A stretch of 64,000 nucleotides of DNA from Bacteroidota bacterium (lineage in GTDB: Bacteria; Bacteroidota; Bacteroidia; Chitinophagales; Saprospiraceae). Made by a program: the position numbers and the translations under genes. The notes under the pieces are model-generated. The model had not been told where the DNA came from and did not search any database. It was given only the letters and a program-made list of their open reading frames with translations. Shown here one piece after another: positions 46,928-64,000 of the stretch (its first letter is position 1; every line of letters begins with the position of its first letter). The stretch lies in NCBI GenBank assembly GCA_018222965.1, contig JAAEZH010000003.1, forward strand, positions 1-64,000, given 5' to 3'.

Positions 46928-47013
46928 TTCTAGGGGGAGTAATCCCGGTAAATTTCAAAGAAAAATCTACACCTTTGTATTTTGTCGAAACAGAAAAGGT
47001 TTCATTTTTAAAG

Positions 47014-47886: not shown

Positions 47887-47890
47887 TTGA

Positions 47891-48721
47891 ATGGATCAGG
47901 CTGAAAAAATACCACTATTGAGTTTGGAGGGTGTGTACAAAAAGTTTAGCACAGACATCCGTTCCAATATGGTGTACGGGATACGGGATCTTATTAGTAC
48001 ACCGAAGAATTACATGCACCTGCGCAAACGCGAGTTTTGGGCTTTGGATGATATCAACCTCAAACTTTATGAAGGCGAAATCGCCGGTGTCGTTGGAGCA
48101 AATGGTTCGGGCAAAACGACTCTGATGCGTATCATTTCGGGGATTTATCCGGCCAATGGCGGCAAAATCCTGATGGCTGGCGATAAAAAAGTGACAGCTG
48201 TTTTTGCCTTGCGAGCAGGGATGCAACAGTTATTTACCGGCCGGGAAAATGTATACATCAAAGGCTCCATGTATGGTATGAGCAAGGAGGAAATCGATGC
48301 TCAAATGACATTCATTGAGGAGTTTTCCGAGTTGGGCGACAAACTGGATCGCCCTTTTGGCAATTATTCTTCCGGTATGCGGGCACGTCTGGCCTATTCG
48401 ATTGCCCTGGCCACCGATCCCGATATTTTCATCATCGATGAAGCCCTGGCTGTGGGAGATTCTGTCTTTAAAGCCAAATGCTTTGACAACCTCAAGGACT
48501 TTGTAAAGCGGCCCGGAAAAGGGGTGTTGTTTGTGTCCAATAACATTAAAAAGGTCATGAAAATTGCTACCCGGATCATGGTCATGGATTTCGGGAAAAT
48601 GATCCTGCAGACCGATGATATCCAGGAGGGATTGTTGTATTACGTTCGAAATTGCCTCCGCCACCTCGATGACGAACAGATCGAATTGCGACTCAACCGG
48701 GTCCGGGATTACGACATGTAA
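47891..48721 (+). CDS. Polysaccharide ABC exporter ATPase (Wzt/TagH-like) with altered H-loop
   Basis: A 276-residue ATPase: VVGANGSGKTTLMRI (Walker A), FGNYSSGMRARLAYSIALA (signature), DIFIIDEALAVGD (Walker B and D-loop). The switch region reads VLFVSNNIKKV, with Asn where the H-loop His is expected (usually VSH). There is no C-terminal carbohydrate-binding domain, so it is the short, non-recognising form. The reduced H-loop could weaken hydrolysis. Confidence 0.86.
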   Translation: MDQAEKIPLLSLEGVYKKFSTDIRSNMVYGIRDLISTPKNYMHLRKREFWALDDINLKLYEGEIAGVVGANGSGKTTLMRIISGIYPANGGKILMAGDKKVTAVFALRAGMQQLFTGRENVYIKGSMYGMSKEEIDAQMTFIEEFSELGDKLDRPFGNYSSGMRARLAYSIALATDPDIFIIDEALAVGDSVFKAKCFDNLKDFVKRPGKGVLFVSNNIKKVMKIATRIMVMDFGKMILQTDDIQEGLLYYVRNCLRHLDDEQIELRLNRVRDYDM

Positions 48722-49363
48722 ATGGTCATCAATCACACATATCGATTTTGCTATTTTGCCATTCCCCGCACGGGGTCCAAAGCGGTGTCTAAAGTATTGC
48801 TAGAGTTGCCGGGCAGTGAAGAACGCCTGCCAATGCATCTGGGAGTGGAAGGATTTCTGGTCGATGCAACGGCCGATGAGAAAAGCTATTTTCGCTTTGC
48901 GAGTATCCGCAATCCGATGGATTCTGTGGTGAGCGCGTATTACAAAAAGAAAATGGATCACAACGGAAGATTCTCCCGGGGTACCTTCAAAAAAGGAAAA
49001 CCCATCGCGCCGCAAGCCTTGGAGGAGTATCGCTTTATTGTGGAGCATGACGCCGACTTTGCCACCTATTTTGCTGCTTTTTTTACGGAAGAATACCGAC
49101 GTCCCAAGCACGAAAATACGGTGGCAGCTATGAATGACCTCATCCGTTTTGAGAATCTGCAATCCGATTTTGAGCGCATTTGCAAGGCCTTGTCCATGCC
49201 CCGAATGGAGGTGCCCCATTACAACAAAACTGCCGGTCGAAAAAGAGATTTTATTCACTTGTATACTCCCGCCATTCGCCGAAAGGCAAAAAAAGTATTT
49301 GGACCAATAATGAATGATTGGGGCTATGAATTTCCGGAAGATTGGCAGGCTGTTACTGATTGA
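48722..49363 (+). CDS. Sulfotransferase family 2-like protein
   Basis: A 213-residue PAPS-dependent sulfotransferase: FAIPRTGSKAVSKVL is the 5'-phosphosulfate loop and FASIRNPMDSVVSAYY the 3'-phosphate site (Arg and Ser). It likely sulfates a sugar. The ATG follows the ATPase stop directly, so exporter and sulfotransferase are co-translated. Its end overlaps the convergent MBOAT-SGNH gene by 11 bases. It contains a copy of the dispersed TTCGCCGAA palindrome at 49275. Confidence 0.82.
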   Translation: MVINHTYRFCYFAIPRTGSKAVSKVLLELPGSEERLPMHLGVEGFLVDATADEKSYFRFASIRNPMDSVVSAYYKKKMDHNGRFSRGTFKKGKPIAPQALEEYRFIVEHDADFATYFAAFFTEEYRRPKHENTVAAMNDLIRFENLQSDFERICKALSMPRMEVPHYNKTAGRKRDFIHLYTPAIRRKAKKVFGPIMNDWGYEFPEDWQAVTD

Positions 49364-51863
49364 TCCTTTCCTGCAATTCTAAATCTTCTTTCCACTTTTT
49401 GTAAATACTCTCTGCGATCAATTTATGACCAAGGACACTTGGGTGCCGATCCCAGGGGCGAACACAAACCTCTTCTTTGGGGTACCCCTCATAAAGGTCA
49501 GACAGATCATAACTCAGGAAGCCAATACTTTCAGCAAATTCTGCCCATTTTTTATTTTCATTATTATGCGGGCTTTCGCCGAATGACGGTATGAATATCC
49601 AGAGGGGAATGATGTCTGCTTCCTGGCATTTTTCAGCTATTTGGGTCAGGCCCCAACGGATCAATTGTTGGCCATAGGGGCGTAGTTTTCGCTGTATGCT
49701 CTCATGGCTGTCATCAAGCTGAATATTGGCTGCCCGGCCAATGGAATCGAGAAATGTGTATTCCCCGGACCAGCCGTCCTTATAGAACAAAGTGAACTTT
49801 CGGATAGCCCGGCCTTCCTCATTTGGGTGGGCGGTGTAAATGACCATATCCGGATCAAAAGGCGGAATCTTTTGCTCAACCCGGGCAACCTGCTGCGGCA
49901 TGTGTGTGCCTGAAATGGCAAAGTTTAAGATTTCAATCTTTTCCGGATAGTCGAACAGCGGATCTCTGTTGAGCTTATCTTCCAATTGATTTTCAAAAGT
50001 CTCCAAATTGCTCACTCCCGAACCCATTTCTATGGAGGTGCCAAGCAGGGCGATCCGGAAAGTGCCGGCTGCTTTTTGAAGGGTGTAAGCACGGTCGCGA
50101 AGGCCAAATGAATTGGTTTCAAGTAAGGCTTCCTTAAACACAACGGAGGTGTCTGGCACCAGTCTTTTTTCGAGCAAATCCCCCGTTTCAATGATGATTC
50201 CGGTGGTGTTGAGTTTGTCCCAGTTGTCGGGTCTTTGGCGTTCCATATCCGGGACGGCTGAGCCAATATTGGTATTGACCACCAGGCTTTCATAATACCC
50301 CTGAAATAAACGCTCCTGATCGGCTTTGTTAAGTTGGGTTTCCAGAATGGGGTCCAACGAAAAAGGAATTGCCGGGGCGATTTTTTCGGTAACGGGCTTG
50401 CTGCCCAGAATCACCAGAATGCCCAAAATAGCCGAGCAGGAAAACAAAGACCGATTGGAGAGTCCATAGGTCTTGATCCTGGCCTGTTTATACTTTTGTT
50501 CGAGCAGCAGCAGCCCGCTTCCGATGAGTAAAGTAGCGATCAGAATCACCAGCAAAAGGCTGCATTCTCCAGGGGATGGCAAACCCGCCTGATTCAGAAG
50601 CCGCCACCAATTGGCCAAAGAATCGCTTATCCATATAGACCATAGGAATACAGTTGTCATAAATACAGCCAGGATGCCCGCTGCTTTTTTCAGGCTTTCG
50701 CGAAAGCCGGGAGCTCCGGAAGGAGATTTTTTGTTTTGTTGACGCCACTGACTCCAGGCCAGTAAAATGCCGAATGCGGTCCAGAAAATAAAGTCAGTCC
50801 ACCGGATTGGAAAGTTGCCTCGAATCCAAAACCACTGGAAGGAGTGCAGGAGCCAGTTGATAAAAAAGATGATGAGGGTGCTCAGGATCAGGGCACGGGC
50901 ATTTCGGTTTTTGAATCTGAAATACACCGGAAAAAAGAAGACCTTTTGTACAAAGTCCCGCCAGTAAATATTGATGCGTCGCCAGTAGACATTAAAATCG
51001 GAAGCCGTAAAGAAATTTGTAAATACCACCGGAAGATCAAATCCAAAAAGACAGATGATTCCAACCGATAAATGGAAGAAACCGGATAGGCGGATGATCA
51101 GCAAATAGGAGGCGATCATGAATTGCAACAGTGAGAATATACCTGAGATATCACCGGGAGCCGGGATCAGATAGGTATAGATCAGCCGGTAAATAAACAA
51201 ATGTGCCAGTCCCAGCAGGATCCACCGCAGTCCCTTTCGATAAATTTCTGCTGCCGGACGATTGTAGTAATTTCTCCTAAAGGTTTTCAGATCGACGACC
51301 GGAAAGATGAAAAACACCAGATTGGGCAGCAAAAAGAAGTAACAAAGACTGGTTACAAAATCCGGATGGTCCTCTTTGATTCGGGTTTCGTAGAGATAGA
51401 GCATCAACCGAAACATAAACAAGGCACCGAGCACCCGGATGGAGATTTTGTCGGCTCCTACGGGGATGATGTCGAGTTGTATGAGGGCCAGAATCAGGGT
51501 GATGCCAAGGATTAAAGCCAGGCGGATTCTGTATGGGGCCCGCATTCGACTAATGCCAATAATGGCAATACCTGTAGCGAGTACGATGAGAGCCGGCTTT
51601 AAGCCAAAGAGCAGAATTAAAGCTATGATATTCAGGGAAAACAAAAAGGCTTTCCGGTACTTGAAAGGAAGCCATGTATGTAAGGCAAATCCTCCGATTA
51701 CCAAAGGCATCAATACCGGAAGCTGAACCTCCGCTTCAATGTTAAATATGGAGATAAATAGTCCGCAGAGCGCCAGACAAATTAGTAATGGGAAAAACGC
51801 TCGCAGGTTCACCAGCGCGTTTGGCCGACTCGCTTCTTTATATATGTGGATGGCGTTTTCCAA
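49353..51863 (-). CDS. MBOAT acyltransferase fused to SGNH domain, copy 1
   Basis: An 836-residue protein when started at TTG 51863, which aligns MENAIHIYKE with the start of copy 3 (MREAIAIRES) and clears the upstream gene; the ATG at 51929 would overlap it by 61 bases. The first ~480 residues are polytopic with the MBOAT segment WRRINIYWRDF and the catalytic His in NWLLHSFQWFWIRGNFP. The C-terminal ~290 residues are SGNH-like: IALLGTSIEMGSGVSN (Ser in GTS) and WDRHPSVLGHKL (Asp-x-His). This probably acylates a surface glycan. It is the most diverged of the four copies. Confidence 0.83.
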   Translation of the reverse strand: MENAIHIYKEASRPNALVNLRAFFPLLICLALCGLFISIFNIEAEVQLPVLMPLVIGGFALHTWLPFKYRKAFLFSLNIIALILLFGLKPALIVLATGIAIIGISRMRAPYRIRLALILGITLILALIQLDIIPVGADKISIRVLGALFMFRLMLYLYETRIKEDHPDFVTSLCYFFLLPNLVFFIFPVVDLKTFRRNYYNRPAAEIYRKGLRWILLGLAHLFIYRLIYTYLIPAPGDISGIFSLLQFMIASYLLIIRLSGFFHLSVGIICLFGFDLPVVFTNFFTASDFNVYWRRINIYWRDFVQKVFFFPVYFRFKNRNARALILSTLIIFFINWLLHSFQWFWIRGNFPIRWTDFIFWTAFGILLAWSQWRQQNKKSPSGAPGFRESLKKAAGILAVFMTTVFLWSIWISDSLANWWRLLNQAGLPSPGECSLLLVILIATLLIGSGLLLLEQKYKQARIKTYGLSNRSLFSCSAILGILVILGSKPVTEKIAPAIPFSLDPILETQLNKADQERLFQGYYESLVVNTNIGSAVPDMERQRPDNWDKLNTTGIIIETGDLLEKRLVPDTSVVFKEALLETNSFGLRDRAYTLQKAAGTFRIALLGTSIEMGSGVSNLETFENQLEDKLNRDPLFDYPEKIEILNFAISGTHMPQQVARVEQKIPPFDPDMVIYTAHPNEEGRAIRKFTLFYKDGWSGEYTFLDSIGRAANIQLDDSHESIQRKLRPYGQQLIRWGLTQIAEKCQEADIIPLWIFIPSFGESPHNNENKKWAEFAESIGFLSYDLSDLYEGYPKEEVCVRPWDRHPSVLGHKLIAESIYKKWKEDLELQERINQ

Positions 51864-51868
51864 ATGAT

Positions 51869-52756
51869 CTATTTCTGTTGGCTGATGACCAGCCGGGCAT
51901 GAAGCATGTCTCTCCAGGATCTTTGCCACTCATCAAAACTCTGAGGGTATTCCGGATATTCGTCAAAGGAACGCAAAGCATGAGACGCTTCCCAGGGTTT
52001 TTTACGGGCAGTGTAATGTACTGCCTTACACCCGTCATAATCCACCCCATCCTGTTGTAAAATGTGCTCGCTTACCACAAATCGGTAATTCCAGGTACTG
52101 GAAACGATGCTGTAATTATCCCGAAACTGTTGGTTGATCAACATCTGATCGGAATGGCTGGAGGTGATGTGTTTAAAATGCTCCACATTGATCATATCGA
52201 CCATGGCCTGATAATTTTCGGGCGTTAATACGGAACGATCGATCATCATCATGCCGGAATTGAAGGTGTCGGTCCAGACCTCATCCAGTTTTTCCGCTTC
52301 TTTGGGAGAAACTTTGTGGAAGGTTTTTGGATCTCTTCGTTTGCCTTTGTAATAGTAAGCATCGCCACAGACCAGCAAGTTTCCTTTCTGTCGAAACAAG
52401 GATTTAAAGCTTCCGCGAATCAGAAAGTCGCTGTCCAGAAACAGCACCCGATCGTAGTCGTATAGCTTGAAGGCATTCAGTGAATAAAACTGCCCCTTGC
52501 GATGCTGAAAGCGATCGTATACCTCAGACAGTTTTTCCGTGCGTTCATGCAAAACGGGATCGACTTCCTCAAAACGAAAGCGCGGGAAATGGTCGAAGTA
52601 CTGTCGCTCCCCGGCACTCAAATCATTGGTGAAGACCACAATGTCTCCCTTAAACCAGGAATTGTGCTCCAGGAAAGAATGGAGCAAGACCAGTGTTCCG
52701 GACAGGAATCTCGAATCGCTTACGGTGGCCAGACAATATTTTTTTTGAAAGATCAT
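51869..52756 (-). CDS. Glycosyltransferase, GT8-like
   Basis: A 295-residue GT-A fold retaining transferase: LATVSDSRFLSGTLVLLHSF at the N-terminus, RVLFLDSDFLIRG with the DxD metal site, FNSGMMMIDRSVL and the C-terminal HYTARKKPW, the HxxGxxKPW-like metal/nucleotide motif of GT8. It lies 9 bases after the sulfotransferase gene (upstream on this strand). Confidence 0.83.
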   Translation of the reverse strand: MIFQKKYCLATVSDSRFLSGTLVLLHSFLEHNSWFKGDIVVFTNDLSAGERQYFDHFPRFRFEEVDPVLHERTEKLSEVYDRFQHRKGQFYSLNAFKLYDYDRVLFLDSDFLIRGSFKSLFRQKGNLLVCGDAYYYKGKRRDPKTFHKVSPKEAEKLDEVWTDTFNSGMMMIDRSVLTPENYQAMVDMINVEHFKHITSSHSDQMLINQQFRDNYSIVSSTWNYRFVVSEHILQQDGVDYDGCKAVHYTARKKPWEASHALRSFDEYPEYPQSFDEWQRSWRDMLHARLVISQQK

Positions 52757-52765
52757 AGCTGTATT

Positions 52766-53638
52766 CTAAGGGAGCATGGCTTCTACTTCCGAACGATCGT
52801 AAAATTGCCAGCAGGCATGATCGCGGGAAAGAAGCTTTTCACCCAGTCTTTTCATAATATCGGAATCGTATAATTTACTCCGGTTTTTGCTCTCCAGCGG
52901 ATACTCCAGATTGGCTGCTTCAGGTACAACAGTCTGGAGCGAGCGGCCATTGGTCTTAATCAAATCTTCGTATCGGATGATCGAACTTTCCGGCAGCTTC
53001 GTGTACTGCTCAAAGTACCACTGGAGTATGTGCAGTTGTTTTTCATACAGATCATCCATGGCTTCTAATTCCTTGTGCAACTTCGTATTCAACCATTCGG
53101 AAGCTCTGACCTCGCCCCGGGAGGCAGGTACATCCAGGCTGTTCCAACTGCCCAATACCGGGATTGGGTTACGGATCTGGGCAAAGAAGGGGTAAATAGC
53201 CCGAAGCTCATCCATCAGAATGGTAAAGGTGGCATTGTGCTTGATCCCCAGATAAAAGTCGGGATTCAGATCTTTGTCGATGGTGACCCGCTGTTTCTTG
53301 GCAATGGTTTTACGTCCTTTACCATCGGCAAAATTATTATCGGTAATGCCTTTTTTGGTAGCGCGGGCGATGGCCGTTTTTTCAGTCAGCAAGGTGTGCC
53401 TGTTTTCCTGGAAAAAAGTCCCTATGCCTTCGATGATATTCTCTTTGGTTCGCAAGCGCCCAATGCGTACAGGCTCGTTTAAAGCCACGGAGTTGGGAAT
53501 CTCCGTCAATAAAAAACAGGTGAGTGTCGTGCCGGATCGAGGTACCCCTGTCAGGATGATATTGCGATCAGAAAGATCCGGACCTTCCGTTTTTTTGCCA
53601 AACAGCTGTTGCAATTTTTGGAGTATGTTGCTTTGCAT
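52766..53638 (-). CDS. Sulfotransferase
   Basis: A 290-residue PAPS-dependent sulfotransferase: LTGVPRSGTTLTCFLLTEI holds the 5'-phosphosulfate loop, and FAQIRNPIPVLGSWNSLDVP the 3'-phosphate site. The start at 53638 (MQSNIL) is preferred because the longer frame to 53683 would overlap the next glycosyltransferase by 41 bases. The glycan acceptor is inferred from context only. Confidence 0.8.
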   Translation of the reverse strand: MQSNILQKLQQLFGKKTEGPDLSDRNIILTGVPRSGTTLTCFLLTEIPNSVALNEPVRIGRLRTKENIIEGIGTFFQENRHTLLTEKTAIARATKKGITDNNFADGKGRKTIAKKQRVTIDKDLNPDFYLGIKHNATFTILMDELRAIYPFFAQIRNPIPVLGSWNSLDVPASRGEVRASEWLNTKLHKELEAMDDLYEKQLHILQWYFEQYTKLPESSIIRYEDLIKTNGRSLQTVVPEAANLEYPLESKNRSKLYDSDIMKRLGEKLLSRDHACWQFYDRSEVEAMLP

Positions 53639-53642
53639 GAAA

Positions 53643-54680
53643 TTACGATCTATTGAATAATGATTGCTGTTCCCAGATGTCATGAGCCTGGTCCAGAAGA
53701 GTGATTAATGCCTGCCGCTCGTTTTCGATCTGATGTTCTTGTGCTTTTGCCCGGCCATTTGACCGATAATAATCCTTTTTTTCGGTTGGCAAGTTCCACA
53801 TTTCGAGGGTTTTCTGTAAAATATCTGCAACCGTATACTTTGGTACCAGGCAATTAACCCGGTCCAAACAGTGGTCTACATTACCAACTGCATGCGGACA
53901 AACGACCAGGGTGTTTAAGGCCATGGCTTCCAGCGCCGGAAGATAAAAACCTTCGGATCCCCGATTGGCTTGCAAAGGTAAACATACAGCCATTTTTGCT
54001 CTTGCCAACAAGCTTAAAAAATCCATTCGGGTGGGTAATTTCGGCGGAAGTTGTACCTCTATGTTTGAAGGCAGGGTGCGGAACTGGCTTTTTCGAAACG
54101 CCCTTCGCCAACGAAGCCGGCGAATAATTTTCCGCGCCAGCTTCGGCTCCTTCAGTCCGATAATGAGAATGTCGATGTCTTTTTCTTTTGGAACTGGAGG
54201 CAGCATGCCCAAATCAATACCGTCCGGAATGACATAAACCGGGCCGTTTACGCCAAATTTTTTCAAAATATTTGCTCCGTTCTCGCTCTTGGCGATTCGT
54301 ATGGCCGGATACTTGAGGTATGGATAGCGGGGATCGTCGGGACGGGTGTGCCGGGGCTGCGCAATGTTCAGAACAGGTACGGGAGGATTCTGGCATTCTG
54401 CTTCCGAAAAGGCCCGCCAATCGGTACCGGAGAAAAACACCAGGTCTTCCTTTTGCGGATCCCATTCGGGGACACCCTGATCTTTTAAATCTTTCCAGTG
54501 GTTGCCGGGATGATCGTTCCAGACCGTATCCGGGGAAAAATAAACAAGGGGCGTAAAGGAATCGGATTCCAGTACATGATTGTAGCAATCCCGCACCTTT
54601 AAATTGCCGCCATTCGTTCCAGAGGAAGGAGACAACAGCCGGCGGTAAAACCAAACCCGTTTTTTATTTTTTGTACCCAT
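53643..54680 (-). CDS. Glycosyltransferase, GT4-like
   Basis: A 345-residue GT-B enzyme: N-terminal FYRRLLSPSSGTNGGNLKVRD, central YVIPDGIDLGMLPPV, and donor-site ANRGSEGFYLPALEAMALNTLVV with the two acidic residues of the E-x7-E motif. The start at 54680 (MGTKNK) leaves 1 base to the upstream sulfotransferase; the longer frame to 54695 overlaps it. Sugar specificity unknown. Confidence 0.8.
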   Translation of the reverse strand: MGTKNKKRVWFYRRLLSPSSGTNGGNLKVRDCYNHVLESDSFTPLVYFSPDTVWNDHPGNHWKDLKDQGVPEWDPQKEDLVFFSGTDWRAFSEAECQNPPVPVLNIAQPRHTRPDDPRYPYLKYPAIRIAKSENGANILKKFGVNGPVYVIPDGIDLGMLPPVPKEKDIDILIIGLKEPKLARKIIRRLRWRRAFRKSQFRTLPSNIEVQLPPKLPTRMDFLSLLARAKMAVCLPLQANRGSEGFYLPALEAMALNTLVVCPHAVGNVDHCLDRVNCLVPKYTVADILQKTLEMWNLPTEKKDYYRSNGRAKAQEHQIENERQALITLLDQAHDIWEQQSLFNRS

Positions 54681-54681
54681 A

Positions 54682-55560
54682 TCAGGCGGACTCAAAGTGA
54701 TACTTTTCGAGGAAGGAATAGGGAGCCATTTTCTCTTCCATAAGGCTTATCATTTCCGGTGTCCAAATGGCTTCCACTTTTTTTCGGGATTGATTGGGGT
54801 TGTCCCAAACAATGGAAGCACAATCTTTTATATAATTTCCTTCGGCTTTAAGTCCGATAAAATCAAGGATTTCCTCCAAACCGCTTTCCGGTTGGCGGAT
54901 GAAGGCATCCAGGTGTATGTCGAGTACCGGAATGATTTCGTCCTGTCTGATTTTATCAATAATCCGGCAGCGATCAAAATAAAAGCGCATTTGCCGCTTG
55001 AGGAGTGGCTGCGCGATTTTTGCTCCTTTGCGGGCAGCTGTGCGCCGCACCATGGTAGAGACATTGTCAAAAGGATTCCGGATAACATGCAGCAACTTCA
55101 TCTGGTTTCCCGATTGCGCGTGTGCCTGATACAGCAGCTTGTCGTCTCCGGCTAATTTGAGTCGGTGACTGGTTCTGCCGCCACATTTATCTCCAATCAC
55201 TCGAAGCTTGCGATATTTCCCCTGCCATTGATTTGGAACCCGGTAGTGATAACCTTCCCATTCTCTGCCCATTCGCGTAAAGCGGATGGAATTTTGGAGA
55301 ATCCGATAATACAATTGAGTATTTGAAAAGCCCTCGCGATAATAATACAGGGCATCCAGTTCGTGTGCAATAAGCATATCCGGATGAGCATCAAGCATGG
55401 ATCCGATTAATGTATGGCCGGATCGGGGATAACCAATAAATAGCAAGAGCTGCTCTACTTCCTTAAAATCTTTTTGGTAGAATAATCCCTGCATAGCCTG
55501 GGTCTTCCACCACCATTTTTGCAATGGGTTTTTGGCTTCCGTGTCAAAAGTATGGGCCAT
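54682..55560 (-). CDS. Sulfotransferase
   Basis: A 292-residue protein with LLLFIGYPRSGHTLIGSML as the 5'-phosphosulfate loop and KLLHVIRNPFDNVSTMV as the 3'-phosphate site. PRSGHT replaces the more common PRSGTT. This form resembles the group that acts on polysaccharides or lipids. Gap to the next sulfotransferase is 2 bases. Confidence 0.8.
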   Translation of the reverse strand: MAHTFDTEAKNPLQKWWWKTQAMQGLFYQKDFKEVEQLLLFIGYPRSGHTLIGSMLDAHPDMLIAHELDALYYYREGFSNTQLYYRILQNSIRFTRMGREWEGYHYRVPNQWQGKYRKLRVIGDKCGGRTSHRLKLAGDDKLLYQAHAQSGNQMKLLHVIRNPFDNVSTMVRRTAARKGAKIAQPLLKRQMRFYFDRCRIIDKIRQDEIIPVLDIHLDAFIRQPESGLEEILDFIGLKAEGNYIKDCASIVWDNPNQSRKKVEAIWTPEMISLMEEKMAPYSFLEKYHFESA

Positions 55561-55562
55561 AA

Positions 55563-56201
55563 TCAGAGAAAATTTCGGTTTAACAAGGTACAGGCTTCCT
55601 GGTATAATTCCAGATCGCGACTGTTTAGCTTTAGCAGGGCTTCCCGATCTTCTGCAGAAAGGGGAGCTGCTTTGAGTTGGTTGAGGTAGGGGGTGGAGAC
55701 ATCGGGCCAGTCCAGTTTGGCAGCCAGACGCTTCAGGTCTTCCTCAAAATGCTCCAACAGGCCAAAAAAATACAAATCGGAAAGCCGACAGCCATTCAGG
55801 AATTCGCACATGCGATTCTGGTTTTCGGGTTTGGAGGCATATTCTAAAAGGCTTTCGCCGAATCTGTGTTTGTTTAGCTCGTATTGTGCCGGATTGCGCA
55901 TGGGGTTTTTCAGGCCTGCCATAAAAAAGCGGTAGTTGGAATAGACCCGTTCAGCCGGATCGCGCAGCCAGCAAATTACTTTTATAGCAGATTGCTTTTG
56001 CAACGCACTGATTTCCGGATAGCGAAAATGGCCGTGCAAAACCTGGAGTTTGCTGTCGGGATGTTGCTCCAATGGGCCCATTTCTTTCAAATCCTTTCGT
56101 CGATAGGATCTTGACAAACGATCGCCATACACATTCCGAAGGATGTGGTAGAAGGAAGTGCCTCCCGTCTTGGGTATGTGTATGGAAATAATCTCAGCCA
56201 T
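55563..56201 (-). CDS. Sulfotransferase family 2 protein
   Basis: A 212-residue paralogue of the following gene: ISIHIPKTGGTSFYHIL is the PAPS 5' loop and VICWLRDPAERVYSNY the 3' loop. This is the heparan/chondroitin O-sulfotransferase-like (Sulfotransfer_2) group. The pattern ENQNRMCEFLNG...LYFFGLLEHFEEDL is shared with the next protein. It overlaps that gene by 8 bases. Confidence 0.85.
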   Translation of the reverse strand: MAEIISIHIPKTGGTSFYHILRNVYGDRLSRSYRRKDLKEMGPLEQHPDSKLQVLHGHFRYPEISALQKQSAIKVICWLRDPAERVYSNYRFFMAGLKNPMRNPAQYELNKHRFGESLLEYASKPENQNRMCEFLNGCRLSDLYFFGLLEHFEEDLKRLAAKLDWPDVSTPYLNQLKAAPLSAEDREALLKLNSRDLELYQEACTLLNRNFL

Positions 56202-56901
56202 GGTATCTGTCTCTTCGTTCCAGTGCTTTTTGGTACAGTTCTACGTCTGCCTGGTTATACCGGGCAATTTGAGCGCGCTCTTCATCCGATACTCCTTCCT
56301 TTTTTCTGCCGGTAATATTGTGTTTTAATTCCTGGGTTTCTTCCCAATCCAGGAGTTTGGCAATGCGCTGAAGGTCTTCGCTAAAGTGATCCTGAATGCC
56401 TACGAAGGCAAAATCTTCCAGTTCCATGCCGGCCAGAAATTTACTCATCCGATTCTGATTGATCTCCTGAGCGGCATACTCCATGAGGCTGCGCTGCATT
56501 TTACTCAGAATATTTAGGCCGCGTTTTTCTTCTTCCAGCTCTTCCCGCAATCGCTTTTGGAGGTAAAAATAATTGGATATCACGCGTTCGATCGGATCGC
56601 GCAACCAGGTGATAAAAGGGGTGCTCTCCGAAATGTCAAAGTATTTATGAAGCAGGGCCGGAGAGAAATGGCCGTGTGCTACCCGCACTTTTGAAGAGAC
56701 TTTCTTTTTGTCGTACAGCTCCTCATTGATTCGAATTTTTTCATTGACCAGGCCGATGTCCAGTCGGATAACAGCCTCTTCACCATACACTTCCTTTAGT
56801 ATCCCCCGAAAAGAGGTACCGGCTGTTTTGGGAATGTGTACGGAAATGAGCTGAAACTTATTCCGTATTCCGGAGTTTTTATTCCGTAGGAATGGGATCA
56901 T
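56194..56901 (-). CDS. Sulfotransferase family 2 protein
   Basis: A 235-residue paralogue of the preceding protein with ISVHIPKTAGTSFRGIL and FITWLRDPIERVISNY. A basic N-terminal extension (MIPFLRNKNSGIRNK) distinguishes it. The coding ends overlap neighbours by 8 and 23 bases, which indicates tight translational coupling with the MBOAT-SGNH gene upstream. Confidence 0.85.
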   Translation of the reverse strand: MIPFLRNKNSGIRNKFQLISVHIPKTAGTSFRGILKEVYGEEAVIRLDIGLVNEKIRINEELYDKKKVSSKVRVAHGHFSPALLHKYFDISESTPFITWLRDPIERVISNYFYLQKRLREELEEEKRGLNILSKMQRSLMEYAAQEINQNRMSKFLAGMELEDFAFVGIQDHFSEDLQRIAKLLDWEETQELKHNITGRKKEGVSDEERAQIARYNQADVELYQKALERRDRYHG

Positions 56902-59437
56902 GATAGTCCTTTTTTAAGATGACTTCATACAGCCTTTCGGCGAATATTTTATGCCCCAAAATATTGGGGTGTCTGTCAAATGAAGCGAGTATCAGCTCAT
57001 CGGGGTCATGACTGTCATAGACATCAATGAGGTTGATGATTTTATACCCGATCTTTTGTGCAATATGCAGACTCTTATCAGCGCTTTCATTGCTTTGTAT
57101 TCCGCTCATGGTTTTGGTGCGAGGCCAGTATACAAATACCGGAGTACTCCCGGCTTTGTCACAGTAATTTGAGATCCGCTTAAGGCATTTTTTTACAACG
57201 AGCTGGCTCAAAGAATCAATTTGATCGTACTTCAACCTGATTTTTTTTCCGGGAGAAATACCGAAGTCGGCAACGATCCGGTCAATGTAGGGGATGCCCA
57301 GTGTGTCGCCTCCTTCGTAAGTATCTTTAATGATCTTATAACATTTCTCAAAGTCGACTCCCTGACTGATAACAAATACTTCATCGGGGTTAAAGCGTTC
57401 AACATTGTTTTCTACTGCATAAACCAGATGCAGTAAATGATATCCGGGCACCGAAAAGTTTAGCAATTCGTAAACGGGGCTTTCTTCTCCGTCTGTATTT
57501 AATTTTTCTTCGCAAACCTGCTCAAAAACTTCTTCATTACTTACTCCGCTGCCGAAGACATAGGATCCGCCAAAAATGGCGATACGGTAGTGTCCTTCCG
57601 GCTTTTCAAGGGAATATTCCTTGTCTCGCATTGCGTGGCTGTTGGTGCTAAGCGGCTGCCCCTTAAAGAGAATGGATTTATTGGGTTTCAGTATTTGATG
57701 AGGCCAGTAATTCAGTTGCCGGGCTGCGTCTGAATCCCGGAAAGCTACCCAGTCCTCGGGCCTTTGTTGTAACTCCGGCAGCGGACTGCTAAATTGATTG
57801 GGGATGAGGATGTCTTCGTAATACCCCTGAACCATCAAGGCATCATCGGCCTGGGAAAGCCGGGTTTCGTAGAGGTGGCTGACAGGTTTCTTAGTCAAAG
57901 GTTGAAAGACTTCCAGGATCGGGGGATAAAGCAAAAGCAGGAAAACCAATAAGCTCAGTCCACCCCAGATCATGGAGCCTGGTTTGTGTTCGTCTGGTTC
58001 CATCCATTTTTTCAAGCGGGTTTGCTCAAAGGCTAAAAGTCCGGCAAAAAGAAGGACGTAAAATAATAACAGGAGCAGCGCAAGCATTTTCCATTCGGCG
58101 AAAGCCGCTGTGCGGATCGGACTAACAAGTTCCCACCAGTCGGAGACTGTCGGGCTGTTCCAAAAGGTCCAGAGCAGGGACATAAACCCAAGCATGCCGG
58201 TAATTTGCAAGCTTTTGATGGCTGTTTTGAGGTAAGGACTTTGAGCGGAATTTCCCTTTTTTTTGTTCGCTCTTTTTTGCTGGTAAACGCCATTGGCTGC
58301 TACGGATATGCCGAGAATTGCCCAAAACAGCGTGTCTGTCAGGTGAAACGGGAAGCTTCCCCGGATCCAAAACCATTGAAAAGAATGCAGGAACCAGGTA
58401 ATGGCAAATGCAGCCAGCGTACTAACAACCAGACGGCTCGTATTTCCCATTCCGCGAAAGCGAAAATAAAGCGGGTAATAAAAGACCTTCATGACATAAT
58501 CGCGCCAGTAAATATTGATGCGTCGCCACAGGTCGCTGAATCCTGTCGCCAGAAAATAATTATGAAAGACCGGGGGCAGGTTAAAGCCAAACAGACAAAG
58601 AATACCGGTAGCAAAATGAAAGATCCCCGATAGGCGGAGGATGAGCGCATAAGTAGTAAAGGCATAAAAGGCCAATCCACTCAGGGTGAAAACCATCTGT
58701 GGATCGGGCTGAATGAAGTAGTAAATGATGCGGTACAACATCAGATGAAAAAATCCGCGAATCATCCAGCGTATGCCTTTGCGGTAGATTTCCTGTGCCG
58801 GCCGGTTGTAATAGCTTCTGCGCCATACTTTATAATCTACCACCGGAAACAGGGTGAAAAAGATGTTGGGCAGCATAAAGAAATACGCAAGACGCTGTAA
58901 GAATGGTGCCGGCGCTTTCTCGTGTTTTACATCATATAAGTAAACGGATGCCCGAAACATAAAGATCGACCCAATAACCGGAATTAGTTTGGAGCTGCCC
59001 GGAATGATGGTTGGTTTATAGGCCCAGATCAGACCAAGAATAAGTCCTGCGATGGCCAGTAGTATTCCCCGGATTCTGACAGATGCGGGTAACTGAAGAA
59101 TGCCAAAAAATAAACTAAACAGGGCAAGTGATAACAAGCCGGGACCCCAGCCAAGGATGTAAAAAAGGCAGACGAGTCCGGTAGTCAGAAAGATGGGCAA
59201 TCTTAAATTTGGCGGACAGACTGTATGGATCAGAAATCCGGAAAGCACAATGGGCAACACCAATGGCAGCATGAGGCTTTGCTCTACCTGTAGCTGAATA
59301 ACCAGAAAGCACAGTAATCCCAGCTGAAGCAGAGATACCAAAAACAAACCGGGTTGCAGAATACCAAGCGCTTCCAATCGGTTGGGTTTGGATTCTGCTA
59401 TTGAAGGAGCCTGGCGTTTTGCGGTTTCTTTTTGCAT
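56879..59437 (-). CDS. MBOAT acyltransferase fused to SGNH domain, copy 2
   Basis: An 852-residue protein: hydrophobic N-terminal block, MBOAT motifs DLWRRINIYWRDYVMKVFYYP and catalytic His in TWFLHSFQWFWIRGSFP, more membrane helices to ~residue 520, then a ~300-residue SGNH domain with FGGSYVFGSGVSNEEVF (Ser) and FDRHPNILGHKI (Asp-x-His). In the usual GxND position it has QGVDF. Predicted role: acylation of a glycan, with MBOAT moving acyl groups across the inner membrane and the SGNH part acting in the periplasm (AlgI/AlgX or DltB/DltD analogy). Confidence 0.85.
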   Translation of the reverse strand: MQKETAKRQAPSIAESKPNRLEALGILQPGLFLVSLLQLGLLCFLVIQLQVEQSLMLPLVLPIVLSGFLIHTVCPPNLRLPIFLTTGLVCLFYILGWGPGLLSLALFSLFFGILQLPASVRIRGILLAIAGLILGLIWAYKPTIIPGSSKLIPVIGSIFMFRASVYLYDVKHEKAPAPFLQRLAYFFMLPNIFFTLFPVVDYKVWRRSYYNRPAQEIYRKGIRWMIRGFFHLMLYRIIYYFIQPDPQMVFTLSGLAFYAFTTYALILRLSGIFHFATGILCLFGFNLPPVFHNYFLATGFSDLWRRINIYWRDYVMKVFYYPLYFRFRGMGNTSRLVVSTLAAFAITWFLHSFQWFWIRGSFPFHLTDTLFWAILGISVAANGVYQQKRANKKKGNSAQSPYLKTAIKSLQITGMLGFMSLLWTFWNSPTVSDWWELVSPIRTAAFAEWKMLALLLLLFYVLLFAGLLAFEQTRLKKWMEPDEHKPGSMIWGGLSLLVFLLLLYPPILEVFQPLTKKPVSHLYETRLSQADDALMVQGYYEDILIPNQFSSPLPELQQRPEDWVAFRDSDAARQLNYWPHQILKPNKSILFKGQPLSTNSHAMRDKEYSLEKPEGHYRIAIFGGSYVFGSGVSNEEVFEQVCEEKLNTDGEESPVYELLNFSVPGYHLLHLVYAVENNVERFNPDEVFVISQGVDFEKCYKIIKDTYEGGDTLGIPYIDRIVADFGISPGKKIRLKYDQIDSLSQLVVKKCLKRISNYCDKAGSTPVFVYWPRTKTMSGIQSNESADKSLHIAQKIGYKIINLIDVYDSHDPDELILASFDRHPNILGHKIFAERLYEVILKKDYHDPIPTE

Positions 59438-59449
59438 GACGTCTGCCCG

Positions 59450-61975
59450 TTAATTGATTGAAGGTTTTTGCTTTATTCTGGTCTTAATAAAAGAGGCAAT
59501 GCTATCGGCAACCAACTGGTGACCGAGCTTGTTTGGATGGCCGTCAAAGGGGGCTACCTTAAGGTCCTCCGAATCATAATCTACATAAATGTCTTTCATG
59601 TTGAGTATCAAAAAATCGTGACTTTCAGCTATTTCTACCAATCTTTTTTCTTCAGGACTTCCCCCTTTAAATTGTGTCCGGGGCCAAAAAGCGAATATGG
59701 GTATAATTCCCGATGATTTACAGCTTTCAGCCAAATGTTTATAGGCGGCATCTACCAGCGTTTCAGAAAATTCATCCACGGCATCTTTTCCGCTTATGGC
59801 GATTTTACCTTCCTCGATTCCTGCTGCTCTGGCCAGGGAGTCGGCAAAAGGGAGATCCAGCGGCAGTCCGGACATATAGGCTTTTATAATGCTGTTGTAA
59901 TTCTTTTTGAAGTCTAATCCGTGAGAAAATATTATTACAGCATCCGGTTTAAAATCCAGTACCTGATCGTGAAATCTGTGAATAGACTGGAGGAGGTGAT
60001 GTCCTGGAACAGCAAAATTTAGAAATTGATAGTTGTTGCTGTTTTCGCTGCTTTTATTGAATTGTTCTTCACATAGGCGGTCAAAGACCTCATCGTTTGA
60101 CACGCCTACACCCGCGGTATAAGATCCTCCCAGGCTGGCAATGCGCAGTTTGTTGTCCGGGTTTTCCAGATTTACTTCCGGGCCTCTCATGCCAAATGCA
60201 TTGGTTTGAAAAGGGGCGCCATTTACGATCGTATTTGCAGAGGGCTGAAGGGTGTACACCCGCCAGTCATCTACAGGAAGGGATGCTTTGGTTCGGGTAA
60301 AGGGCAACCAATCTTCGGGAGACTTAATGTTTTCAGCTTCGAGTTTTCTGTCTGATAGCGGAGAAGTAAAAGGATTGGCGATTAGAATTTCTTCGTAATA
60401 GCCCTGCACTTTTAGTGCATCATCCTGCACATTGAGACGGTTTTCAAAATAATGGGAGAGCGGTTTTTTGAAAACAGGTTGAATGGCATTCTGTACCACC
60501 GGCAGCGTAAGCCCGGTGAAAATGCTCAGAGTGGTCAGCGACCAAAAGACGGATAGCGATTTGCCATCGTCGGGCTCGAGGAATGCAGCGATTTTAGGGT
60601 TTTGAAACAGGCGCAAGCCAACAAAAAGGCAACCTAAAAAAAGGAAGACAAGGACCGCAAACCAAAGCCATTCGCCGAAAGGCGCCGCAAGTGCTTTTTG
60701 GATAAGGCTCCACCAATCGGTCAGCGACGGACTGTTCCAGAGGGTGTAAATAAGGCTCATAAAAGCAAACATGCCTCCGATCTGCAGGCTGCGAATGGCC
60801 GTTTTTTGATTTATCCCCCGGCTCTTTTTTGGCCCTTTCGTCATTTTCTTTTGCTGGTAAGCAGCATTGGCAGCCACCAGCACCCCAAATGTGATCCAGA
60901 ATACGGCATCAACGGTACGCACCGGAAAACTGCCCTTCAGCCAAAACCACTGATAAGAATGCAGGAACCAGCTGATGAGGAAAGCGATGAGGGTGGTGAG
61001 GACCATGCCCCGCAAATTGCCCCATTTTCGAAGCTTGAAGAAAAGGGGGAAGTAAATAAGTTTGGTGACATAATCCCGCCAGTAGGTGTTGATGCGTCGC
61101 CAGATATCGCTAAAACCAGATGCGAGGAAGTAGTTGTGAAACAAGGGGGGCAGATCAAATCCGAAGAGTGCCAGCACGCCAGCAGACGTATGGAAAATGC
61201 CGGAGAGCCGGAGGATGAGCAGGTAGGTGGTGGCAAAATAAAAGGCAATTTGACCCAGGGATTGCAGGTATTGCGGATCGGGCTGAAAATAGTAGTAAAC
61301 GAGCCGATAGAGCATCAGGTGACAGAAGCCGCGAATGAGCAATCTGGCACCTTTCTGATAAATTTCGAGATCGGAGCGGTTGTAGTAAAACTTTCGGAAG
61401 TTCTTGTAGTCGACCACCGGAAAAAGGGTCAGCACAAAATTGGGCAGCATGAAGAAATAGGCCAGTTGCTGAGGAAGCGGAACGGGTTGTTTTTCAAATT
61501 GCTGTTCGTACAGAAAGAGCGATGCCCGAAACATGAAGATGGAGCCCACTACAGGGATTACCCGTTGAGCACCAGGCAGTAAAAAGGGTTTGAATTGCCA
61601 GATTGCAGCCAGCACAGCTCCTGCCAACAATAAGAGGATGGCCCTGATTCTGACCGAATAGGGCAATTGCAGGATGCCAAAAAGGACGGCAAAAAGACCA
61701 AGCAGGACAGCAGCCGGCACCGGATCAAAGAGGTAAAAGACGGCAAAGAGCCCGAAACTCAAAAAGAAGGGCAGCCGCCAATTAAAAGGCAGCAGGGCAT
61801 GAATGGCAAATCCGACAGTTGCGAGGCTCAGCAAACGGGGCAGTCCGATCAACGTTTCAATGGCATAGCGATTAGCCAGCCAGGAAACAGCGATGAGCTG
61901 AAGCAATACGAGAGAGAGTCGCAGCGCGCGGCGCAGCGAGAAAGTGCTTTCGCGAATGGCAATAGCTTCTCTCAT
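59450..61975 (-). CDS. MBOAT acyltransferase fused to SGNH domain, copy 3
   Basis: An 841-residue protein. MBOAT region: DIWRRINTYWRDYVTK (~289-305) and the catalytic His339 in SWFLHSYQWFWLKGSFP. The SGNH domain starts near 540; Ser618 in GGSYTAGVGVSNDEV and Asp811-x-His813 in DGHPNKLGH are the expected catalytic residues. Residues ~178-521 are encoded by DNA identical to copy 4. It lies 12 bases upstream of copy 2, so the copies form one operon. Confidence 0.86.
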   Translation of the reverse strand: MREAIAIRESTFSLRRALRLSLVLLQLIAVSWLANRYAIETLIGLPRLLSLATVGFAIHALLPFNWRLPFFLSFGLFAVFYLFDPVPAAVLLGLFAVLFGILQLPYSVRIRAILLLLAGAVLAAIWQFKPFLLPGAQRVIPVVGSIFMFRASLFLYEQQFEKQPVPLPQQLAYFFMLPNFVLTLFPVVDYKNFRKFYYNRSDLEIYQKGARLLIRGFCHLMLYRLVYYYFQPDPQYLQSLGQIAFYFATTYLLILRLSGIFHTSAGVLALFGFDLPPLFHNYFLASGFSDIWRRINTYWRDYVTKLIYFPLFFKLRKWGNLRGMVLTTLIAFLISWFLHSYQWFWLKGSFPVRTVDAVFWITFGVLVAANAAYQQKKMTKGPKKSRGINQKTAIRSLQIGGMFAFMSLIYTLWNSPSLTDWWSLIQKALAAPFGEWLWFAVLVFLFLGCLFVGLRLFQNPKIAAFLEPDDGKSLSVFWSLTTLSIFTGLTLPVVQNAIQPVFKKPLSHYFENRLNVQDDALKVQGYYEEILIANPFTSPLSDRKLEAENIKSPEDWLPFTRTKASLPVDDWRVYTLQPSANTIVNGAPFQTNAFGMRGPEVNLENPDNKLRIASLGGSYTAGVGVSNDEVFDRLCEEQFNKSSENSNNYQFLNFAVPGHHLLQSIHRFHDQVLDFKPDAVIIFSHGLDFKKNYNSIIKAYMSGLPLDLPFADSLARAAGIEEGKIAISGKDAVDEFSETLVDAAYKHLAESCKSSGIIPIFAFWPRTQFKGGSPEEKRLVEIAESHDFLILNMKDIYVDYDSEDLKVAPFDGHPNKLGHQLVADSIASFIKTRIKQKPSIN
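60414..61442 (-). repeat. 1,029-bp identical repeat, unit in copy 3
   Basis: Identical base for base, by my reading, to 62972-64000 (offset 2,558). The first mismatch at the left edge is 60413/62971. The right edge is unknown because the partner runs off the window. It covers the MBOAT half, not the SGNH domain. Confidence 0.93.
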
Positions 61976-62019
61976 TTTCGGGTTCTGCCTTTAAAGGTTT
62001 AGTGCAATTACATACACTG

Positions 62020-64000
62020 TTATTCCACCGGTTTATCAGGAATGAGGTTATTGTCTGTCAACAAGCGGTAAATTTTTTCAGCTGCCAATTGATGTCCCAG
62101 TCGGTTTGGGTGCTCATCCCAGGCAGCTAATTGTATCTTCTCTTTGGGATTTCCCTGATAGAGTCCTTCGGCATCCAAAATTTGAAATCCGTGTTTTCGG
62201 CCCATTTTCAGGATGCGTTCTTTTTGGTCTTTTCTATTGTCGGTTTGGGTACGTGGCCAGTATAAAAGGATGGGGGTGATGTCTTTTTTGCGGCACTCTT
62301 CTGCCAGCCACTGGTAGCAAAGATCGGTAAGGGTTTCGGTTTTTTGCAACCAATCGGAAAAGTTTGTTCGGATGTCGGCATCCGGTTGGAAGCCCAGTGA
62401 ATCAGCAGCAGCTTTTAAGAAGTCATAGGGGATGCCGGGATAACCTCTACTGTAATTTCGGCCGATGGTTTCCAGCATTCGGTTTATGTCTACCCCGTGG
62501 GTGATGACCAGGAGGGCATCCAATTCAAACTGACTGGCTTTTTCCTGGTACAGATCGATCAGATGAAGCAGATGGTAGCCGGGTACGGCAAAATTCAGCA
62601 ATTCATAGGCGGTATTTTCGCTTGCCTCCTGATTTAAGCGGCTTTCCAGAATGGCTTCAAATACTTCCTCATTATCCACGCCAGACCCTACCACATAGGA
62701 GCCGCCGAGTATGCCCATGCGCCAGGTATCTTGAGGAGTAGCTTTCGCGTACTCCCGGTCCCGCATGCCCAGGCTGTTGGTGGTAAAAGGAGCTCCTTTT
62801 AGTTGGAGGTTATTGTTGGGTTTGATATCATACATTTTCCAATCATGCGTCAGTATTGCTGCTTTCGATTGCGAAAAATTGACCCAGTCCTCCGGTTTTT
62901 TAGGCACATCTGTCAGGGGCGAAGTAAAGGGATTGGCTACTAAAATCTCTTCGTAATAGCCCTGTACTTTCAGTGCATCATCCTGCACATTGAGACGGTT
63001 TTCAAAATAATGGGAGAGCGGTTTTTTGAAAACAGGTTGAATGGCATTCTGTACCACCGGCAGCGTAAGCCCGGTGAAAATGCTCAGAGTGGTCAGCGAC
63101 CAAAAGACGGATAGCGATTTGCCATCGTCGGGCTCGAGGAATGCAGCGATTTTAGGGTTTTGAAACAGGCGCAAGCCAACAAAAAGGCAACCTAAAAAAA
63201 GGAAGACAAGGACCGCAAACCAAAGCCATTCGCCGAAAGGCGCCGCAAGTGCTTTTTGGATAAGGCTCCACCAATCGGTCAGCGACGGACTGTTCCAGAG
63301 GGTGTAAATAAGGCTCATAAAAGCAAACATGCCTCCGATCTGCAGGCTGCGAATGGCCGTTTTTTGATTTATCCCCCGGCTCTTTTTTGGCCCTTTCGTC
63401 ATTTTCTTTTGCTGGTAAGCAGCATTGGCAGCCACCAGCACCCCAAATGTGATCCAGAATACGGCATCAACGGTACGCACCGGAAAACTGCCCTTCAGCC
63501 AAAACCACTGATAAGAATGCAGGAACCAGCTGATGAGGAAAGCGATGAGGGTGGTGAGGACCATGCCCCGCAAATTGCCCCATTTTCGAAGCTTGAAGAA
63601 AAGGGGGAAGTAAATAAGTTTGGTGACATAATCCCGCCAGTAGGTGTTGATGCGTCGCCAGATATCGCTAAAACCAGATGCGAGGAAGTAGTTGTGAAAC
63701 AAGGGGGGCAGATCAAATCCGAAGAGTGCCAGCACGCCAGCAGACGTATGGAAAATGCCGGAGAGCCGGAGGATGAGCAGGTAGGTGGTGGCAAAATAAA
63801 AGGCAATTTGACCCAGGGATTGCAGGTATTGCGGATCGGGCTGAAAATAGTAGTAAACGAGCCGATAGAGCATCAGGTGACAGAAGCCGCGAATGAGCAA
63901 TCTGGCACCTTTCTGATAAATTTCGAGATCGGAGCGGTTGTAGTAAAACTTTCGGAAGTTCTTGTAGTCGACCACCGGAAAAAGGGTCAGCACAAAATTG
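62020..64000 (-). CDS. MBOAT acyltransferase fused to SGNH domain, copy 4 (5' end outside window)
   Basis: About 660 C-terminal residues are visible and the frame stays open at the window edge, so the start lies beyond 64000. The MBOAT half is the same as copy 3. The SGNH half (GGSYVVGSGVDNEEVF; WDEHPNRLGHQL) is closer to copy 2 than to copy 3, for example in YELLNF-VPGYHLLHL and YWPRTQT. The protein is thus a mosaic of two paralogues. The gap to copy 3 is 44 bases. Confidence 0.85.
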   Translation of the reverse strand, partial: NFVLTLFPVVDYKNFRKFYYNRSDLEIYQKGARLLIRGFCHLMLYRLVYYYFQPDPQYLQSLGQIAFYFATTYLLILRLSGIFHTSAGVLALFGFDLPPLFHNYFLASGFSDIWRRINTYWRDYVTKLIYFPLFFKLRKWGNLRGMVLTTLIAFLISWFLHSYQWFWLKGSFPVRTVDAVFWITFGVLVAANAAYQQKKMTKGPKKSRGINQKTAIRSLQIGGMFAFMSLIYTLWNSPSLTDWWSLIQKALAAPFGEWLWFAVLVFLFLGCLFVGLRLFQNPKIAAFLEPDDGKSLSVFWSLTTLSIFTGLTLPVVQNAIQPVFKKPLSHYFENRLNVQDDALKVQGYYEEILVANPFTSPLTDVPKKPEDWVNFSQSKAAILTHDWKMYDIKPNNNLQLKGAPFTTNSLGMRDREYAKATPQDTWRMGILGGSYVVGSGVDNEEVFEAILESRLNQEASENTAYELLNFAVPGYHLLHLIDLYQEKASQFELDALLVITHGVDINRMLETIGRNYSRGYPGIPYDFLKAAADSLGFQPDADIRTNFSDWLQKTETLTDLCYQWLAEECRKKDITPILLYWPRTQTDNRKDQKERILKMGRKHGFQILDAEGLYQGNPKEKIQLAAWDEHPNRLGHQLAAEKIYRLLTDNNLIPDKPVE
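62972..64000 (-). repeat. 1,029-bp identical repeat, unit in copy 4
   Basis: Partner of 60414-61442, continuing past the window edge. Upstream of 62971 (toward the SGNH end) the two genes first show scattered synonymous differences and then diverge fully. Confidence 0.93.

Follow-up and report, generated by a model that had tools for sequence, protein, structure and literature searches.

How can two neighbouring genes share one half to the last base and diverge widely in the other? This question is raised by the first 64 kb (the window, 64,000 nucleotides) of a 214-kb contig, JAAEZH010000003.1, from a Saprospiraceae genome of 5.48 Mb (GCA_018222965.1, hereafter G000), whose closest named relatives are metagenome-assembled genomes of that family. 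The window and the sequence beyond it, numbered continuously as contig C61, contain five genes for fused MBOAT-SGNH proteins, all on the minus strand: copy 1 (c1, 858 aa, 49353-51929), which stands apart and groups with a gene of a sister genome, and a tandem run c5-c4-c3-c2 comprising c2 (852 aa, 56879-59437), c3 (841 aa, 59450-61975), c4 (62020-64000 in the window, continuing to C61:64688 across a scaffold gap) and c5, which lies directly beyond the window and c4 (C61:64701-67274). A sequence-only reading of the window had pointed to a stretch of at least 1,029 bp shared by c3 and c4, and had taken it for the product of conversion or unequal crossover and for a possible diversity generator. 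The best explanation overall, to which we give a probability of roughly 60%, is a tandem set of single-chain, Dlt-like acyltransferases that are homogenised by gene conversion and fed by a carrier protein.

The identity of 60414-61442 and 62972-64000 was confirmed, and extension past position 64000 lengthened the exact repeat to 1,521 bp (60414-61934 = 62972-64492) and revealed c5 as a further copy. In c3 the block (60414-61934, minus strand) spans the MBOAT half and the transmembrane helices that follow it, codons ~14-521; in c4, also on the minus strand, it runs from 62972 to the end of the window and on to C61:64492, where it meets 100 N. Past the 3' limit of the block, in gene sense, there are 11 differences in 63 bp before c3 and c4 diverge. 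On the gene-start side, comparison of c3 61880-61975 with 64593-64688 beyond the gap identified two adjacent base differences, and similarity ends at the ATG. After codon ~521, the SGNH halves of c3 (59450-60413, minus strand, with a linker and YY motif of its own) and c4 (62020-62971, minus strand) are only 34–35% identical in amino acids and 46% in nucleotides. The kinship proposed earlier between the SGNH halves of c4 and c2 was ruled out, as their 35% identity is within the range of 33–38% found among c2-c5 (c4-c3, 34–35%; c4-c5, 36–37%; comparisons with c1, 29–32%); the closest relative of the c4 half is a sister-genome gene, at 45–47%. Likewise, the idea of a uniform membrane engine holds for c3 and c4 only: c1, c2 and c5 have MBOAT halves that are 40–57% identical to the c3/c4 half and to one another (56–59% in nucleotides for c2 and c5 against c3/c4).

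We analysed synonymous sites by the clustering of identical codons among residues that are identical in both proteins (5,000 shuffles, floor P=0.0002). The analysis covered 25 chosen pairs, 22 within genomes and 3 between-genome controls, and set aside c1 versus the other copies, cross-clade pairs of other genomes and split systems. Within the c3-c4 tract, every one of the 480 residues that agree between the two proteins is also encoded by the same codon (1.00; P=0.0002), versus 37% in the SGNH half, and protein constraint therefore cannot explain the identity of the block. From this codon pattern, gene conversion very probably homogenised the MBOAT halves of c3 and c4. Significant homogenised tracts (P<0.001) were found in 3 of the 22 within-genome pairs, all on the membrane side, with P>0.1 for the remaining 19; besides c3-c4 these are genes 1 and 2 of SH-MAG116 (61 codons, 0.98 the same; P=0.0002) and genes 1 and 2 of KLAP184 (116 codons, 0.84 the same; P=0.0004). 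The proposal that MBOAT-side conversion of this kind recurs in Saprospiraceae is thereby well supported.

The SH-MAG116 contig starts inside gene 1, the first 105 nt of which are identical to gene 2. Identity between the two genes is 94–97% over ~60 codons, falls to 57%, returns to 94% near the linker and the first SGNH block, and is then ~50%. The second patch of high identity (locus L055; 94% in nucleotides, profile columns 585-615, where the SGNH domain begins) is separate from the MBOAT tract. Another contig, whose gene start resembles that of these genes (78% across ~180 bp), stops ~25 codons into the gene, and the stretch between the two contigs was not found. The sister genome (G001) was considered as a second clear case and rejected: its gene a is assembled from two contigs whose ends fit (an overlap of 25 nt; contig C21 begins at the same point), but the comparable stretch gave P=0.40.

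Phylogenetic trees were reconstructed for the two halves and for the region between them, leaving out three short fragments, the duplicate loci numbered L100 and above, rows that fell below the fill limits and, for the middle region, also loci L087, L088 and L090-L099. In the MBOAT-half tree the identical c3/c4 sequence joins gene a of the sister genome (Shimodaira–Hasegawa-like approximate likelihood ratio support, 99). In the SGNH-half tree c4 joins gene a (100/97) and c3 lies outside, and in the middle-region tree genes pair by genome, c3 with c4 and sister-genome gene a with gene z. The placements of c3, c4 and gene a in the MBOAT and SGNH trees point to c4 as the donor, and conversion would probably have run from c4 to c3.

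The assignment of these proteins is supported by their predicted fold, although no MBOAT model of Pfam (E≤0.1; c1-c4, with c4 as its window part) or NCBIfam (E≤1; c1-c3) matched. An AlphaFold2 model of c3, built from 40 sequences of the window and named genomes (mean predicted local distance difference test score 88.7), has an N-terminal half resembling DltB (Z 20.8, root-mean-square deviation 4.1 over 363 residues), followed by PORCN, HHAT and MBOAT7 (Z 17–18). The C-terminal half adopts an SGNH fold closest to CgnD (Z 21.6), with TesA and other GDSL enzymes at Z ~15; CgnD is a hydrolase of crocagin biosynthesis, according to PMC10070186. At the sequence level, Pfam GDSL_2 matches c3 slightly under its cut-off (3.5e-7), and the matches listed in a profile search of the PDB are all to the SGNH part. 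On the strength of this model, we predict with high confidence that the copies are MBOAT-SGNH acyltransferases.

Residue conservation was counted over 96 proteins and fragments, in which some genomes are represented twice. The catalytic histidine of the membrane helices, His339, is present in 77/77 rows with that column, as are the serine (Ser618), asparagine and histidine (His813) of the SGNH catalytic blocks; the aspartate (Asp811) is found in 75/77. In PatA, as PMC12148441 describes it, the acyl group is carried by a tyrosine within an FxYxxF motif at the MBOAT tail. This motif occurs in 14 of the 96 proteins and fragments, and only in locus L097 at the homologous position, which is mostly occupied by a tryptophan (LLWSLW-like) and by a tyrosine (LIYTLW) in c3/c4. 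An apparent break of L097 into two open reading frames (ORFs) proved to be a stretch read as X, and we rejected it as a split system. A tyrosine pair (Y526-Y527) is invariant in 75/75 rows; it is located in a linker modelled with low confidence (525-538), five codons beyond codon 521, the boundary of the proposed conversion. Separate MBOAT and SGNH ORFs occur in planctomycete loci and one Oligoflexia locus, where the YY pair is on the SGNH ORF. Given this distribution, we tentatively propose YY as the acyl shuttle, with odds slightly against it. In two of the planctomycete loci (L087, 7653-11482, and L096, 7560-11156) a single, separate MBOAT gene precedes a pair of dissimilar SGNH genes, an arrangement of one membrane engine with two heads on proteins of their own; in L096 the contig end truncates the second SGNH gene.

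Adjoining c1, five genes in a row on the minus strand (46788 to 41728), divergent from a plus-strand ABC polysaccharide exporter, form a carrier cassette. These encode an acyl or peptidyl carrier protein (82 aa, 46540-46788; Pfam PP-binding above cut-off, weak similarity to DltC), an amino-acid adenylating ligase (504 aa, 45026-46540; Pfam AMP-binding, TIGR01733 above cut-off), an L-prolyl-carrier-dehydrogenase-like protein (384 aa, 43879-45033), a flavin-dependent halogenase-like protein (453 aa, 42438-43799; Pfam Trp_halogenase) and a methyltransferase (235 aa, 41728-42435; Pfam). The ligase is below the cut-off of the DltA models (299–312 bits against 476–560), and its PDB matches include the L-prolyl-carrier ligase 6o6e (1.4e-70), with gramicidin synthase modules scoring higher. 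For the dehydrogenase, the top three PDB matches are prolyl-carrier dehydrogenases (4irn, 4.8e-83; 5zw0; 6af6), leading the next acyl-CoA dehydrogenase by ~25–40 bits, and the PigA and L-prolyl-carrier dehydrogenase models are the best in NCBIfam, both below their cut-offs. ChlB4, 5buk and PltA are among the best PDB matches of the halogenase, which contains GWIWMIP; W-x-W-x-[IVL]-P is found in 14/15 halogenase rows (our own included, one locus counted twice), and WxWxIP is the motif of FADH2-dependent halogenases. The prolyl-type dehydrogenase and the halogenase point elsewhere than to D-alanine as the transferred group, and gene content favours, by a narrow margin, an acyl group of the pyrrole type.

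We examined how far this linkage extends in 398 genomes of the family, at cut-offs of E≤1e-60 for MBOAT-SGNH and halogenase and E≤1e-80 for dehydrogenase; the MBOAT-SGNH and halogenase scans each covered 398 genomes, taken to be the same set, and a contig scan found relatives with an alignment as query and none with a single sequence. MBOAT-SGNH was detected in 24/398 genomes. Halogenase relatives occur in 19/398, all of them among these 24 and none among the other 374 (hypergeometric P=3e-28, a test that ignores shared descent), and in 16/19 the two lie within 15 kb on the same contig. Dehydrogenase relatives are present in 20 of the 24, and the 18 best-scoring matches come from 17 of the 24. 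G000 itself has one halogenase and one dehydrogenase match at these cut-offs versus five MBOAT-SGNH genes. Two halogenase relatives are found in each of two genomes, side by side in one (G611:C204:15818-18474) and on separate contigs in the other (G233:C121:1269-2591 and C159:4844-6172), possibly reflecting a second halogenation step. Among 48 named loci, 22 have at least one of carrier, ligase, dehydrogenase and halogenase, and 8 have all four. Locus L068, from the cultured environmental isolate Neolewinella aurantiaca SSH13, contains relatives of these four and of the methyltransferase. A carrier or ligase gene lies within 200 bp on the same strand in 12/48, one of these (L065) at only 23% identity. 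In KLAP184, the third MBOAT-SGNH copy is followed (L045, 13479-14930) by an ORF that looks AlgI-like by eye and by a gene resembling acyl-AMP ligases, which is 23% identical to the window ligase.

These data bear on the strongest competing explanation, that the proteins are ordinary acetyl-CoA-dependent O-acetylases and that the nearby cassette makes an unrelated small molecule. Acetyl-CoA is the donor of known PatAB-type systems (PMC12148441), and 26/48 named loci have no cassette gene in their available flanks. This explanation leaves unaccounted for the restriction of halogenase, at the cut-off, to genomes with MBOAT-SGNH, and the position of carrier or ligase genes directly beside MBOAT-SGNH in Bacteroidota, a Gammaproteobacteria metagenome-assembled genome and Planctomycetes, including systems in which the two halves are separate genes. 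We consider it unlikely, though the most serious of the rivals, and regard the feeding of MBOAT-SGNH by the linked carrier cassette as probable from this gene linkage.

The remaining alternatives concern the origin of the block. Unequal crossover within the array, favoured by the head-to-tail arrangement of the paralogues on one strand, would create a chimera sharing its SGNH half with the preceding gene c5; yet c4 and c5 are just 36–37% identical there. As the predicted partner tract is absent, we rejected a simple crossover; with a parent possibly lost later, crossover remains an improbable substitute for conversion. Of the two origins offered by the sequence-only reading, conversion is therefore the one that stands, on the 480/480 codons and the tracts in SH-MAG116 and KLAP184.

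Slightly less probable still is an assembly effect, in which small differences between two moderately similar genes were merged, or the edge of a repeat was mis-copied, and 100% identity is not biological. At its upstream end the c4 block runs into exactly 100 N (C61:64493-64592), and the contig ends on either side of this gap have 55 identical nucleotides in common. In a de Bruijn graph with k=55, contig ends at a repeat fork are expected to overlap by 55 nt, and assemblers tend to collapse isolated mismatches between copies; isolated c3/c4 differences could have been merged. Four internal N-runs were found in the ~440 kb of G000 inspected, two with exactly this overlap and two with none. Both of the former are in C61 at repeats, the second being 10 N at C61:74389-74398, around which lie direct repeats of 78–107 bp (C61:74123-74604). 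We interpret the c4 gap as probably hiding no missing sequence: if the 55 nt are a single overlap, the c4 frame is continuous by arithmetic (41 + 2,473 nt = 838 codons including the stop). Against a pure artefact, both junctions of the block to its different 3' halves fall within contiguous sequence, and at least one loop must follow the order block-SGNH4-block-SGNH3, requiring at least two traversals of the block; more are possible, and the assembly does not fix how many repeat units there are. Moreover, collapsing isolated differences still implies near-identity, versus 56–59% for c2 and c5, and SH-MAG116 has readable sequence of 94–100% identity beyond the part missing from its assembly. 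Conversion of the c3/c4 block thus remains the better account, and the original observation stands in lengthened form, with conversion well supported and this caveat of assembly attached. If the whole gene had been duplicated recently and the SGNH half alone had then changed very fast (by hypermutation or strong selection), differences would be confined to the 3' half as observed; this scenario is very improbable and was rejected on synonymous sites, because codon retention of 37% in SGNH faces zero change in the upstream 1,521 bp and because the c4 SGNH half groups with a gene of another genome and therefore predates the event.

The surroundings of the array are rich in genes for glycan synthesis and sulfation. 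On the plus strand, the cassette faces an ABC-2 export permease and ATPase (46975-48721), Wzm/Wzt- or TagGH-like in Pfam and NCBIfam comparisons below equivalog cut-offs, and a sulfotransferase (48722-49363; Pfam Sulfotransfer_2). Between c1 and c2, six minus-strand genes (51869-56901), overlapping or spaced 2–9 bp, encode a GT8 glycosyltransferase, sulfotransferase-like and GT4-like proteins (both below cut-off), a sulfotransferase and two Sulfotransfer_2 proteins. The stretch from a GT8 gene beyond c5 to c1 contains twelve same-strand genes that overlap or are separated by no more than 44 bp: five for MBOAT-SGNH proteins, four sulfotransferase-like, two GT8 and one GT4-like. Farther along, a sulfotransferase domain is joined to a GT4 glycosyltransferase in one protein (C61:68312-70336; L007, 11313-13337), and ORFs whose start resembles this protein, as judged by eye, lie near the arrays of several relatives.

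A diversity generator in the sense of a switching device, as first suggested, is unsupported. The catalytic residues are retained in all five copies; apart from one distant SGNH protein (24% identity), searches of G000 with c3 turned up no free-standing SGNH half of this family, and no inverted repeats of at least 20 nt were found at 49000-64000 or C61:57000-68999. The genus sample consists of two genomes, of different species. It is plausible, in line with descriptions of PatAB- and OatA-type systems, that the SGNH half is the part that chooses the acceptor.

Several results weigh against the overall explanation. One of the three between-genome control pairs in the synonymous test has a low P value (0.55, 0.30 and 0.016), and the contig breaks of the sister genome hint that two of its genes have an MBOAT half in common, yet the comparable part is without signal. 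The approximately unbiased test does not reject an SGNH clade of c3+c4 (P=0.151) or of c3+c4+gene a (P=0.291), and the assignment of donor and recipient is therefore tentative. Both the 100% identity and the copy number are provisional: they depend on a scaffold of short reads (k=55-like) that is interrupted within c4, and the block ends at this gap with its 55-nt flank overlap. On the side of the cassette, the dehydrogenase and the ligase are below curated equivalog cut-offs, dehydrogenase relatives also occur, from 1.8e-93 down, in 29/374 genomes lacking MBOAT-SGNH, which fits a broad family, and in three of the 24 MBOAT-SGNH genomes the dehydrogenase scores no better than in genomes without MBOAT-SGNH. 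Halogenase is missing at the cut-off from 5/24 MBOAT-SGNH genomes (three of the five are 83–87% complete), and three planctomycete loci with a ligase or carrier have no dehydrogenase or halogenase in their available flanks. Together with the 26 loci that lack a cassette gene, these cases leave room for acyl groups that differ from system to system; planctomycete loci with ligase or carrier alone may, by analogy with Dlt, use a plain amino acid.

We propose the following model for the array. Ligase, carrier and dehydrogenase would make a prolyl-derived, carrier-bound acyl group of the pyrrole-2-carboxyl type, possibly halogenated and methylated. The MBOAT half would carry it across the membrane, through His339, to a tyrosine, most likely within YY526-527 of the flexible linker, from which Ser618 of the periplasmic SGNH domain would pass it to a hydroxyl group on a sulfated glycan, the presumed cargo of the neighbouring ABC transporter. 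Several MBOAT halves would draw on one donor, and different SGNH halves would serve different hydroxyls of the glycan; with one shared donor the donor-side halves would tolerate, and perhaps gain from, homogenisation, and with different acceptors the SGNH halves would stay apart. Conversion would copy the MBOAT half, probably from c4 to c3, with limits at the start codon and at a conserved linker island (LNxxD...GYYE) because homology ends there.

The larger interest lies in the carrier-fed MBOAT-SGNH system. Judged by title and abstract opening, none of the open-licence papers listed in our searches describes this pairing of carrier and MBOAT-SGNH or this mosaic. We raise, tentatively and with somewhat less than even confidence, the idea of an undescribed Gram-negative Dlt-like pathway that places (halo)pyrrole-carboxyl groups at several sites of a sulfated, ABC-exported polysaccharide, with conversion-homogenised donor halves and diversifying acceptor halves. 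If true, it would join two so far separate fields, the carrier chemistry of secondary metabolism (prolyl to pyrrolyl, halogenation) and transmembrane acylation of surface polymers, and glycans that are halogenated or bear pyrrole groups would be expected in Saprospiraceae and in bacteria outside the family. It would also provide a natural one-chain MBOAT-SGNH enzyme for structural study of acyl crossing and, through swapped acceptor domains on an identical engine, a natural test of which half selects the acceptor.

Several known systems have features in common with the array. The cassette resembles those converting prolyl- to pyrrolyl-carrier (PltF/PltL/PltE/PltA; prodiginine PigA) in its adenylating ligase, carrier and relatives of the prolyl-carrier dehydrogenase and the PltA-type halogenase; it differs in scoring below equivalog cut-offs and in its linkage to sulfotransferases and to a membrane enzyme for glycan acylation. 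AT3-SGNH fusions such as OatA and OafB share the single chain with C-terminal SGNH, but here the membrane half has the MBOAT fold, not that of AT3/TmAT, the two being structurally distinct according to PMC12423673. PatA/PatB and AlgI/AlgX likewise combine a two-step membrane transfer, an invariant histidine and an SGNH acceptor step (PMC12148441). Compared with PatA/PatB, the proteins described here are fused, mostly have tryptophan at the FxYxxF position, contain an invariant YY before SGNH and are linked to a carrier cassette. The array also parallels Dlt (DltA ligase, DltC carrier, DltB MBOAT, DltD SGNH), with which it shares the set of ligase, carrier, MBOAT and SGNH, DltB being among the best fold matches, and the occurrence of adenylating ligase and carrier protein within one cluster (in G000; adjacent in 12/48 named loci). 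Unlike in Dlt, MBOAT and SGNH are fused, no DltX, the tyrosine shuttle of Dlt, was seen, and genes for a prolyl-dehydrogenase-like protein, a halogenase and a methyltransferase are added, D-alanine not being indicated; and where Dlt modifies teichoic acid, this array is set in a cluster for glycans and sulfotransferases.

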